NCBI GenBank assembly: GCA_012517355.1
Contig: JAAYVD010000134.1
Span: forward strand, 124,001-188,000
Direction: 5' to 3'
DNA length: 64,000 nucleotides
Source of the DNA: Candidatus Rifleibacteriota bacterium
GTDB lineage: Bacteria; Muiribacteriota; Ozemobacteria; Ozemobacterales; Ozemobacteraceae
In this document: positions 47,988 through 51,197 of the stretch, one piece after another
Position numbering within the stretch: the stretch's first letter is position 1
Layout of the letters: each line of letters starts with the position of its first letter
Position numbers and translations under genes: made by a program
The notes under the pieces: generated by a model
What the model saw: only the letters and a program-made list of their open reading frames with translations
Told to the model about the DNA's origin: nothing
The model's database searches: none

Positions 47988-48683
47988 TCACCACTCGTCG
48001 GTGCTGCTGCCATCGATGGCCAGGCCTGCCCCGACCGACCAGACGTTCTTGACCCCGGTGGCGGTGGTCGGCCAGGCGGTCTCGCGGTAGGTCTTGTTGG
48101 GGCCGGCGGTGTCGGTGGCTGAACCGAACTCGAAACGGGCGTTCGCCGCCCACCCGGCGAAGGGATGCGGGGGAATGTGCCGGATGAACCGGCGATTGAT
48201 GCTGACCGACACTCCTTTGGCAGGATCGGAGGAGAGGTCGTCGGGGTCGGTGGCCACCGTGAATGAAGCCCCGGGGGCATGGAGGGGATACACGAAGCTC
48301 GCCGGCGAGAGGGGAAAGAGCAAACCCAATTCGGTGGCCGAAGCCAGGGCCTGCTTGAAGGCCTTGTTCCGGGTATTGTTGTTGCTGTTGGCGGCTTCGA
48401 TCTTGTCCCACATCTGTCGGGAGACGTACGACTTGTAGGAGTCGCGGGCGGCGTCGAGCTCGCTGAGGATTTCGCGAAGGCGGTTTTCACGATCGCGCTG
48501 CTGCATCAGGCGGAAGGAGGGGAAGATCAGCGCCGCCATCAAGGCGAGGATGGTCGTCACCACCATCAGCTCGATGATCGTCACACCCCGCCGGTGGAGA
48601 ATGGGCGATGGGCCTGAAGAGAACGAAGGAACCGGAGGAGCAGGAGAAAGGGAGAAAAGGGGGAAGGGGCGAGCGGAAGTCAT
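47988..48683 (-). CDS. type IV pilin-like protein with repeat-encoded leader
   Basis: A 231-residue prepilin. The cleavage motif RRG/VTIIELMVVTTILALMAAL is classic, but the leader is 33 residues long, whereas most are 6-15. Its first ~20 residues (MTSARPFPLFSLSPAPPVPS) are encoded by copy 1 of a pyrimidine-rich repeat shared with the sequence downstream of the GxxExxY gene. The body has LREILSELDAARDSYKSYVS and a globular domain. There is no in-frame start between the repeat and the RRG, so either the repeat-derived leader is used or the gene lost its original start. Confidence 0.82.
   Translation of the reverse strand: MTSARPFPLFSLSPAPPVPSFSSGPSPILHRRGVTIIELMVVTTILALMAALIFPSFRLMQQRDRENRLREILSELDAARDSYKSYVSRQMWDKIEAANSNNNTRNKAFKQALASATELGLLFPLSPASFVYPLHAPGASFTVATDPDDLSSDPAKGVSVSINRRFIRHIPPHPFAGWAANARFEFGSATDTAGPNKTYRETAWPTTATGVKNVWSVGAGLAIDGSSTDEW
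48620..48683 (-). repeat. pyrimidine-rich ~60-bp repeat, copy 1
   Basis: On the minus strand it begins ATGACTTCCGCTCGCCCCTT and continues as a CT-rich tract to about 48620. It is nearly identical to copy 2 for ~58 bp and encodes the first residues of the pilin leader. Sequence upstream of the ATG differs between copies, so the repeat boundary is sharp at ATGACTTCC. Confidence 0.8.
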
Positions 48684-48759
48684 GATCGGGCCACCTCCCC
48701 GCGGCGAGCATCAATGGTGCTGAACGAGGAAGAAGGAATGGGGAGAGGAAGGAGAAAAA

Positions 48760-48820
48760 ACAAAGAAACCGAAGGAGCAGGAGAAAGGGAGAAAAGGGGG
48801 AAGGGGCGAGCGGAAGTCAT
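48760..48820 (-). repeat. pyrimidine-rich ~60-bp repeat, copy 2
   Basis: Same orientation as copy 1. Its ATGA overlaps the stop codon of the GxxExxY gene. It encodes the start of a 46-codon frame (MTSARPFPLFSLSPAPSVSL) that ends just before the pilin start; this small frame is probably a by-product of the repeat, not a gene. Confidence 0.8.
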
Positions 48821-49197
48821 TTCCGGTCGACCTCGACTCTTCGCACGTCGATCTTCATGCCGGAGAAATTCACCAGAAGGCCTACCTGCAGATTGGCGGC
48901 CTTGAGATAGGAACGGACCTGTGCGTAGAACCTTCCGGCAAGATCTTCCACCGTCTTCAATTCGACCACGACCTCGTTTCCCACGACCAGATCCAAACGG
49001 TGCAACCCGACCTGCACTCCTTGATAGAAAACCTTGATCTCCCTTTCCGTTTCGAACGGGATTCCCTGCTTCCCCAGTTCGATGCGCAGGGCCTGATGGT
49101 AAATGGTTTCCAGGAACCCCGGCCCCAGTTCCCTGTGAACAGCAATGCAGGCATGAATGATCCGGTCGGTCAACCCGATCGCCCGCCCAGCCTCCAT
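48817..49197 (-). CDS. GxxExxY protein (PD-(D/E)XK nuclease-fold family)
   Basis: A 126-residue protein with the family-defining motif GPGFLETIY (residues ~25-33). The nuclease-like core reads HRLDLVVGNEVVVELKTVED, where Asp and Glu-x-Lys (ELK) match the PD-(D/E)XK active-site pattern. The tail VGLLVNFSGMKIDVRRV is also typical. The family's activity is not established; members are scattered and often sit between repeats. The gene is less GC-rich than its neighbours and is enclosed by inverted pairs of the pyrimidine-rich repeat, suggesting it moved in between ctpA and the pilin genes. Confidence 0.92.
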   Translation of the reverse strand: MEAGRAIGLTDRIIHACIAVHRELGPGFLETIYHQALRIELGKQGIPFETEREIKVFYQGVQVGLHRLDLVVGNEVVVELKTVEDLAGRFYAQVRSYLKAANLQVGLLVNFSGMKIDVRRVEVDRK

Positions 49198-49278
49198 TCA
49201 AGCCCTTTGCCCCTTTCGGTTCATCTTTCTGTTCAATGGCCGACCGATTTCGTGATTCCGACGGGTTCTCAGCGCAAA

Positions 49279-49330
49279 TCGCCTCTACCCCATCTTCTTC
49301 TTTTCTCCTTCATCCTGCGTTTCGGTTTCG
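49279..49330 (+). repeat. pyrimidine-rich repeat, degenerate copy (opposite orientation)
   Basis: CGCCTCTACCCCATCTTCTT and following bases resemble the repeat core CGCCCCTTCCCCATCTTCTC, but on the plus strand. It lies upstream of the GxxExxY gene, so it is inverted relative to copies 1 and 2. Confidence 0.5.
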
Positions 49331-49384
49331 GCGTTTTCCATTCCGATTCCTCACGCCTCAAAATAGTCTGGGAGTCTGATGGAT

Positions 49385-49445
49385 GTCCGGCGTGGCTCGC
49401 CCCTTCCCCATCTTCTCCCTTTCTCCTTTTCCTTCGGTTCTCCTC
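49385..49445 (+). repeat. pyrimidine-rich repeat, copy 3 (opposite orientation)
   Basis: Reads GGCTCGCCCCTTCCCCATCT on the plus strand and continues as a CT tract, matching copies 1 and 2 in inverted orientation with scattered changes. It runs straight into the 11-bp tandem array. Together with copies 1/2 it forms ~60-bp inverted repeats around the GxxExxY gene. Confidence 0.7.
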
Positions 49446-49509
49446 CGGTTCTCCTCCGGTTCTCCTCCGGTTCTCCTCCGGTTCCCCTCCGGTTCCCCTC
49501 CGGTTCGCC
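49435..49509 (+). repeat. 11-bp tandem repeat array, about 6.5 units
   Basis: CGGTTCTCCTC repeats exactly at 49435, 49446, 49457 and 49468; CGGTTCCCCTC follows at 49479 and 49490, and a partial unit at 49501. The array ends 20 bp from the ctpA stop. The rest of the 49198-49528 gap is CT-rich and AT-richer than its surroundings, with no gene. Confidence 0.9.
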
Positions 49510-49528
49510 TTACATGCGAACCGTTCCC

Positions 49529-50950
49529 CTACTCCTTCTTCAGGAGGGGCAGGAACAGGTCGGCCGATTTCAGGATGTCGACGGCGCGCAGCAGCTGGGA
49601 ATCGTACTTGTTGATGACGTATTCCTGCAGGCTCCCCTTGGTGAAGCTGTCGGGCGGTTCGATCAGTCCGCTCGGCACGTAGGTGTCGCTGGCCGGCGCC
49701 ACGGCAGTGCCGCTGGCCGGGGTTTCGGCGGAGGGAGTGGCGGTGGCGGCGGGCGTCGGGGCCGCGAGAGCGGCGGACTTGGAGGCCTCGGCGGCCTTGG
49801 CCAGCTTCTCCTCCTCCTCGATCTGCTTGGCGATCTCCTTGCGTTCCTCGTCGCTCACCTTGGGCAGATCGACCTCGATGTCGGGCTCGATCCCCTTCTT
49901 GTGGATGTTGACGCCAGAGGGGGTGTAGTAGAGGGCGGTGGTCAGGGCCAGGGCCGACCCGTCGTTGAGACTGATGACGGTCTGCACCGACCCCTTGCCG
50001 AAGCTCTTCTTCCCGAGCAGGATGCCGCGCTTGTTGTCCTTGATGGCGCCCGCCACGATCTCGGAGGCGGAGGCCGACCCCTCGTTGATCAGCACGATCA
50101 GTGGGATCAGCGGGTGGGACTGGAAGAACGAGCTGTAGGTGTTCTTCTCGCCGTCGCGGCCCTTGATCGAAACGATGTCGCCCTTGGGGATGAACTTGCG
50201 GCCGACCTCGACCGCCGCAGTCAGCAGGCCGCCGGGATTGTTGCGCAGATCGAGGATGATGGAGGTGACCTTCGCCTTTTCGAGGGCCAGCATGGCCTTC
50301 TCGAGGTCTTCGGCCGAGGTCTGGATGAACTGGGTCAACCGGATGTACCCGATGTTCGGCTTGACCACCCAGTATTTGACGCTCGGGATCTTGATGATCT
50401 CGCGGATCAGGCTGTAGTCCTTGGTTTCCTTCTCCCCCTCGCGCAGCACGGAGATGACCACCTTCGAACCCTCGGGCCCGCGCAGGAGCTTGACCGCGTC
50501 GTGCAGGGCGATATCGACCACGTCCTTGCCGTCGATCTTGATGATCATGTCGCCCGCCTTGATGCCGGCCCGGAAGGCCGGGGTATCCTCGATCGGGGAG
50601 ATGACCGTCAGCATCCGGCCTTTCACCGTGATGACGATGCCGAGTCCGCCGAACTCACCCTGGGTCTCGACCTGCATCTCCTTGAAGGACTTGGGCTCCA
50701 TGAAGCGGGAGTACGGGTCGTCGAGCACTTTGAGCATGCCCTCGATGGCACCGTAGACCAGCTTGTTCTCCTCCAGGTTCTCGTCGACGTAGTCGGACTT
50801 GATGATTTCCATCACCTTCCGGATCAGGTCGAGCGACTTGAAATAGGTGATGTTGGTGCTGGTGGCCGACAGGGCCCCCGCCAGCATCACCACGAGCACG
50901 AAAGCCAGGAAGGGACGGAAGGAACGGGTCGAGGGAAGGAACCGCTTCAT
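49529..50950 (-). CDS. ctpA: carboxyl-terminal processing protease (CtpA/S41 family)
   Basis: A 473-residue S41 periplasmic serine protease. A signal peptide or anchor (FLAFVLVVMLAGALSA) is followed by a PDZ domain (GRMLTVISPIEDTPAFRAGI, about residues 105-185). The catalytic region has INEGSASASEIVAGA (Ser near 292) and GKKSFGKGSVQ (Lys near 317). The Ala/Glu/Pro-rich segment after 385 and the final helix are lineage-specific. AAGGAG lies 6 bases before the ATG. It follows ftsE-ftsX-envC, a common arrangement in which CtpA-type proteases act on cell-wall enzymes. Confidence 0.94.
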   Translation of the reverse strand: MKRFLPSTRSFRPFLAFVLVVMLAGALSATSTNITYFKSLDLIRKVMEIIKSDYVDENLEENKLVYGAIEGMLKVLDDPYSRFMEPKSFKEMQVETQGEFGGLGIVITVKGRMLTVISPIEDTPAFRAGIKAGDMIIKIDGKDVVDIALHDAVKLLRGPEGSKVVISVLREGEKETKDYSLIREIIKIPSVKYWVVKPNIGYIRLTQFIQTSAEDLEKAMLALEKAKVTSIILDLRNNPGGLLTAAVEVGRKFIPKGDIVSIKGRDGEKNTYSSFFQSHPLIPLIVLINEGSASASEIVAGAIKDNKRGILLGKKSFGKGSVQTVISLNDGSALALTTALYYTPSGVNIHKKGIEPDIEVDLPKVSDEERKEIAKQIEEEEKLAKAAEASKSAALAAPTPAATATPSAETPASGTAVAPASDTYVPSGLIEPPDSFTKGSLQEYVINKYDSQLLRAVDILKSADLFLPLLKKE

Positions 50951-51006
50951 GAGACACTCCTTGGATCGATGGCCGACGGAACGCCCGGCGATGACATTCG
51001 CTGGAC

Positions 51007-51035: not shown

Positions 51036-51197
51036 GATCCGGGAAGAGTCAGGGAAGACAAGGGCACCCCGTGAAGGGGATCGGATTTCTAAGCCCCAGG
51101 TGAATGCCGATTCCCGCTGAGTTCGATCCGTCCTCATCCGCGACCATCCGCGGTTTCCCTCTGCCCGTCCGGTGCCTCACCCGTCGAGGTGGGGGCG

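Follow-up and report, generated by a model that had tools for sequence, protein, structure and literature searches.

The ctpA-pilin junction of the window, the 64,000-nucleotide stretch of DNA analyzed here (G000:C34:124001-188000, from a 7.1-Mb genome of 184 contigs), contains an inserted 673-bp element (48767-49439) in which a GxxExxY gene is enclosed by inverted arms. This architecture and the insertion of the element are well supported. The element probably belongs to a widespread class, similar to REPIN/RAYT systems, with a nuclease-fold GxxExxY ORF between arms, gene-less derivatives and hairpin-based movement. We infer that the GxxExxY nuclease moves the element by a hairpin or annealing route, its protein also serving gene-less pairs in trans.

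The gene order on the minus strand is ctpA, the GxxExxY gene, three prepilin-like genes, and pilB-like and pilM-like genes, the latter two labeled from their sequence only. The GxxExxY (PDDEXK_3) gene at 48817-49197 (minus strand) encodes 126 aa. Its upstream neighbor, ctpA (49529-50956, minus strand), encodes an S41 C-terminal processing peptidase by profile match, and its downstream neighbor (47988-48683, minus strand) is the first prepilin-like gene of the pilin operon, with an N_methyl domain. The downstream inverted arm (48767-48811, minus strand) starts 6 nt past the GxxExxY stop codon and has its outer end, AACCGAAGGA, on the plus strand. The upstream arm (49395-49439, plus strand) is pyrimidine-rich on the plus strand, with the outer end ...TCCTTCGGTT, and the two arms are 91% complementary over 45 nt. 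A second downstream-arm copy (48629-48674, minus strand), a tandem duplicate at 137 bp, is 89% complementary to 49395-49440 over 46 nt. Read from the outside in, the arms open with AACCGAAGGA and proceed in heptamer-like steps with a period of 8-9. A degenerate inner copy of the upstream arm (49254-49314, plus strand) lies 118 bp from the good copy and was found again by a PWM at 26 bits. The original prediction had two minus-strand copies downstream and two plus-strand copies upstream of the gene, as inverted repeats of about 60 bp; three copies are good, the fourth (49254-49310) is weak (72% to the 49395 copy), and the best arms measure about 45 nt. The sharp repeat boundary also claimed had to be given up, as the ATGACTTCC edge was found only where the two minus copies are locally duplicated (137 bp). 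A lower GC content of the cassette was borne out (0.55-0.58 versus about 0.60-0.67 in its surroundings). Adjoining the upstream arm, an 11-bp unit, TTCTCCTCCGG, recurs in tandem about seven times (49427-49510, plus strand), looking like an expansion of the arm's outer end. A solo arm-like sequence lies upstream of ctpA at 51128-51160 (AACCGCGGATGGTCGCGGATGAGGACGGAT on the minus strand) and is of the short-period type seen in GxxExxY arms elsewhere.

The GxxExxY gene is genuine, matching TIGR04256 with 133 bits (cut-off 35) and PF13366 with 132 bits (cut-off 22). Genes of this family are annotated as encoding proteins of unknown role, and in the open-access literature GxxExxY proteins are hardly named, with a mention in passing. 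The ORF carries the PD-(D/E)XK site residues D69 and E79-x-K81; invariance of the NEVVVELK block in our alignment results in part from the patterns by which loci were selected. The structure predicted for the protein (pLDDT 92.5) has as its closest PDB folds SSO0001, which we take to be a Cas4 protein, lambda-type exonucleases, MGME1 and RecE, with moderate scores (best E 1.2e-4, TM about 0.6), and a sequence search of the PDB returned no relative. Residues and predicted model agree with the proposed nuclease-like core and suggest a fold of the Cas4/lambda-exonuclease type, that is, of end-processing nucleases. An anti-phage role was considered and rejected, as PADLOC defense models gave no match.

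Comparison with relatives of the window's genome indicates how the junction came to be occupied. In the congeners G001 and G002 the first pilin gene begins roughly 90 bp after ctpA, and neither GxxExxY nor the repeat is present; the cassette does separate ctpA from the pilin genes, as originally noted, and the empty junction sought in related genomes exists in both congeners. Retention of the gene at this site without the repeat, which would have spoken against a mobile cassette, is not what they show, for the gene is missing as well. More distant relatives likewise have a ctpA-pilin junction without GxxExxY. Because the gene is absent from this junction in congeners and more distant relatives alike, we conclude that about 0.7-0.85 kb was gained in the window's lineage, gain being simpler than repeated loss. 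A second, NtrC-linked site is filled in G005, G017 and G021, and the gene is absent there in G012, of the same genus, and in more distant relatives; the collections hold one genome per species, and at such divergence empty sites do not give exact junctions. Neither excision nor circles nor fresh insertions were observed. At the ctpA-pilin junction of G010 (L094) an unrelated insertion carries different inverted repeats that look dispersed (GTCATTCCGACCGAAGG... and GCAATCTTCCGGCATTCGGATTGC...), and the site may therefore tolerate insertions.

Inverted arms accompany GxxExxY genes well beyond this locus. Our survey covered relatives together with Planctomycetota, Kiritimatiellae, Bacteroidota, Chloroflexi, Acidobacteria, Ignavibacteria and Proteobacteria. 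Inverted matches from flank to flank were found at 26 of 50 GxxExxY loci versus 2 of 109 control ORFs, the controls being picked by length rather than annotation and gene starts being approximate. By a dinucleotide-shuffle test, significant inverted repeats hugged the gene at 37 of 48 GxxExxY loci versus 4 of 154 control ORFs (Fisher p 4e-26), and about a fifth of GxxExxY loci had no significant arms. Further loci, drawn from the same set of genomes, themselves chosen for holding GxxExxY (5 of 30 loci dropped out because no motif match was obtained), had significant inverted arms in 15 of 17 cases (p 4e-16). The arms are short-period repeats, the upstream one usually purine-rich (e.g., AACCACAGAGGACACAGAGAACACAGAG); typically a run such as AACCACAGAGGACACAGAGAACACAGAGA directly precedes the gene and its inverse directly follows the stop, with CACGGAG, CGCAGAG, CACAGAT, CACAAAG, ATGAAG and AACCGAG as step variants in other copies. 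Thus, the proposed survey of repeats near GxxExxY genes gave inverted repeats of like kind in most genomes checked; although the exact repeat of the window is species-specific, the objection that the repeat never goes with GxxExxY elsewhere is not borne out. Neither arms nor solo pairs matched Rfam, the only nearby hit being a TPP riboswitch in L161, and in the open-access literature CACAGAG-type repeat strings turned up in PCR primers and in two papers whose titles are unrelated.

In G000 the core, CGCCCCTTCCCCCNTTTCTCCCTTTCTCCT, has 53 matches when as many as 3 mismatches are allowed, and it is not a product of chance, since the reversed control has 0; genome-wide counts come from pattern and BLAST searches and may be incomplete. 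The core was found in none of 23 other genomes of the family, and its pattern had no exact match among about 85,000 species represented by one genome each, a set that possibly excludes the window's own genome. A block of about 37 nt, roughly CNCCSYTCGCCCC...TTCYCCT, is almost invariant over 38 unlinked loci with variable flanks. At about 16 loci the core is part of tandem repeats whose units, roughly 55-200 bp long, have only the core in common between loci, and many core loci are such tandem arrays and not inverted pairs. Assembly contigs end inside core arrays, one shared by C37 and C107 (L177/L192) and another by C143 and C151 (L203/L207), and array copy numbers are thus probably underestimated. 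By a simple codon-usage gene model, all core loci examined are intergenic, in mixed orientation relative to genes. Two prepilin-like genes also begin with the core in their reading frame, one at 48629-48683 in the window (MTSARPFPLFSLSPAP...) and the other at about 3995-4160 of L164 (...TARPFPLFSHSPAP...). At the former, the ATG of the repeat copy is the start of the listed pilin ORF, so the core codes for the pilin leader; in both cases the repeat provides leader-peptide coding sequence.

These data bear on whether gene and repeats met by coincidence, host-specific, minisatellite-like intergenic repeats having built up in G000 to either side of a gene gained by horizontal transfer. The core is present without GxxExxY at about 45 other intergenic loci, and inverted core neighbors occur without such a gene at L172, L190, L195 and L212 and once around a Thg1-like gene (tRNA-His guanylyltransferase-like, by eye; L185:3456-4640), all of which fits such an origin. 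Opposite-strand core neighbors in G000 nevertheless follow a rule, 7 of 7 being oriented as around the GxxExxY gene, and together with the cross-phylum excess of inverted arms at GxxExxY genes this makes coincidence, already weakened by the survey, quite unlikely. What the 45 loci do rule out is that the repeat is a GxxExxY substrate unique to the window locus. Nor does G000, with its single GxxExxY gene at that locus against so many gene-less copies, support spread of this exact repeat by the protein. The original idea of a mobile cassette accordingly stands as to inserted-cassette behavior, given empty junctions and the cross-phylum arm excess, and is not supported as to a link between GxxExxY and the spread of this exact repeat.

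Ordinary transposition offers a further explanation, with the arms as IS or MITE remnants and GxxExxY as the passenger of a DDE transposon. G000 does contain, as a separate element, a MITE about 157 bp long with the ends GACACTCCAGCATTTCGACTGAC...GTCGAAATGCTGAAGTCTC (L215-L243, e.g., G000:C32:8226 and C7:130314), represented by 62 terminal-repeat matches there and 1 in G010, with 8-bp target duplications (own match 0.70 versus 0.34) and a variant of the window's core in its interior. No autonomous copy of this MITE was seen. The core arrays lack MITE ends, leaving at most a partial relation between core and MITE. Elements of the GxxExxY type behave otherwise. No target-site duplication was detected in 38 CACAGAG-type elements with and without the gene, own and cross flanks scoring equally at lengths of 3-10 and end offsets of 0-6, and none of the paired arms examined was seen to enclose a transposase gene. 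Arms also fit their own partners better than those of other elements (summed score 2502 versus a permutation maximum of 1577) and often differ between elements; the base beside the outer terminal CC, where pairing ends, pairs in 95% of cases within an element versus 51% across elements. Descent from IS or MITE insertions is therefore very improbable.

Dispersed inverted pairs without a gene add to the resemblance to REPIN/RAYT systems. The pattern CACAGAG-N1-2-CRCDGAG-N1-2-CRCDGAG occurred in 14 of 19 GxxExxY-bearing genomes, with up to 143 matches in one (reversed control 1). All 51 close pairs listed were purine-first, most of them 37-97 bp apart, and one wide pair, 506 bp apart, encloses a GxxExxY gene. 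The gene-less pairs are, in sequence, clean hairpin-like elements. Across 57 relatives the pattern was present in 6 of 14 genomes with GxxExxY versus 3 of 43 without (p 0.004, ignoring phylogeny and including the genes' own arms); some genomes without detected GxxExxY also have it, for example G004, which is 79% complete and has 14 matches. The class thus joins inverted repeats flanking a gene with dispersed gene-less inverted doublets, as expected of a REPIN/RAYT-type system.

In the mechanism we favor, short-period purine/pyrimidine repeats inverted around one small PD-(D/E)XK gene, a layout common to many phyla, would serve as arms through which a single strand of the element, or else its transcript, folds into a hairpin. 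The putative GxxExxY nuclease would trim or open the arms, and copying or joining would then place the element at a further intergenic site with no target-site duplication, helped by annealing to resident repeats. Gene-less inverted pairs and solo arrays would be non-autonomous derivatives, related to the element as REPINs are to RAYT transposases.

The main rival to this mechanism is a selfish RNA-structure element resembling the intervening sequences (IVS) of 23S rRNA, which lie between complementary termini, encode the S23 ORF and undergo RNase III cleavage (PMC4990558). The arm stem would isolate or remove the ORF from a host transcript through RNase III-like processing, DNA spread would be passive or of unknown kind, and GxxExxY would be cargo. 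Folding of the 673-nt RNA of 48767-49439 is in keeping with this, as the two arms close the whole into one stem (z = -6.3) around the ORF, as the complementary termini of a 23S rRNA IVS do. So is the layout around four-helix-bundle genes of the S23/IVS family (TIGR02436; L274-L302): of 22 loci tested, 16 had inverted arms, their units measuring about 7 bp (e.g., GTCAGTAGCCAGTAGTCAGTAG). Since TIGR02436 genes have a like layout, the repeats are not tied to GxxExxY alone and the ORF need not be the mobilizer; the idea that GxxExxY alone makes the repeats is weakened, and a mode of movement or an RNA or DNA structure common to both families is suggested. The many dispersed gene-less inverted pairs, however, require a copying mechanism, and arms in G000 also form direct tandem arrays. 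We consider the IVS-like account rather unlikely, although by analogy both accounts may describe a single phenomenon from different angles. Tentatively, and with some doubt, GxxExxY proteins could be the nucleases that mobilize a new class of small elements, spread across phyla, with short-period inverted arms and without target duplication, with S23/IVS-type elements a sister class of the same arm logic and the rRNA IVS one special case of a larger family. If so, a sporadic protein family, a sizeable share of the short-period intergenic repeats in several phyla and perhaps the way 23S rRNA IVS arose would be explained together, and the whole idea could be tested with one nuclease and one repeat substrate.

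Set against the open-access literature, the data point to a so far undescribed family of small mobile DNA elements. MIRU and minisatellite-like arrays, compared here from general knowledge, resemble the G000 arrays, whose tandem units, roughly 55-200 bp long, have the core in common and differ in filler from locus to locus; to our knowledge, arm orientation and gene linkage are not features of such arrays. MITEs are likewise short, dispersed and intergenic with inverted ends, but the GxxExxY type shows neither a target duplication nor an identified transposase family, and the genuine MITE of G000 with its 8-bp duplications is separate. TAACTGA heptamer repeats of Beggiatoaceae, Cyanobacteria and Bacteroidetes, proposed to be regulatory, are also short-period (7-bp) intergenic sets, sporadic over phyla and with an unknown mechanism of spread, but they are direct and not tied there to flanking ORFs of the GxxExxY or TIGR02436 families or to inverted arms (PMC4679880). 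The 23S rRNA IVS share with the window element a small ORF bounded by complementary ends that form one long stem, sporadic occurrence and the lack of a known transposase, and the S23-family genes surveyed here have short-period inverted arms as well; unlike them, the window element lies between protein genes rather than in a 23S rRNA helix, encodes a different ORF family and has many gene-less copies. REPINs are dispersed inverted doublets of REP sequences (PMC3116915). Common to REPIN/RAYT systems and the GxxExxY type are a small nuclease gene ended by inverted repeats, gene-less inverted pairs dispersed in intergenic DNA, no target duplication found and one or few genes per many repeats. By profile and predicted structure, GxxExxY has a PD-(D/E)XK fold in place of the HUH tyrosine of RAYT, and its arms are short-period whereas those of REPINs are GTAG-type imperfect palindromes; the link between protein and repeat is a putative one for the GxxExxY type. 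Lack of an HUH enzyme places the GxxExxY element outside the REPIN/RAYT family, although RAYT and its REPINs are its nearest working analogy.
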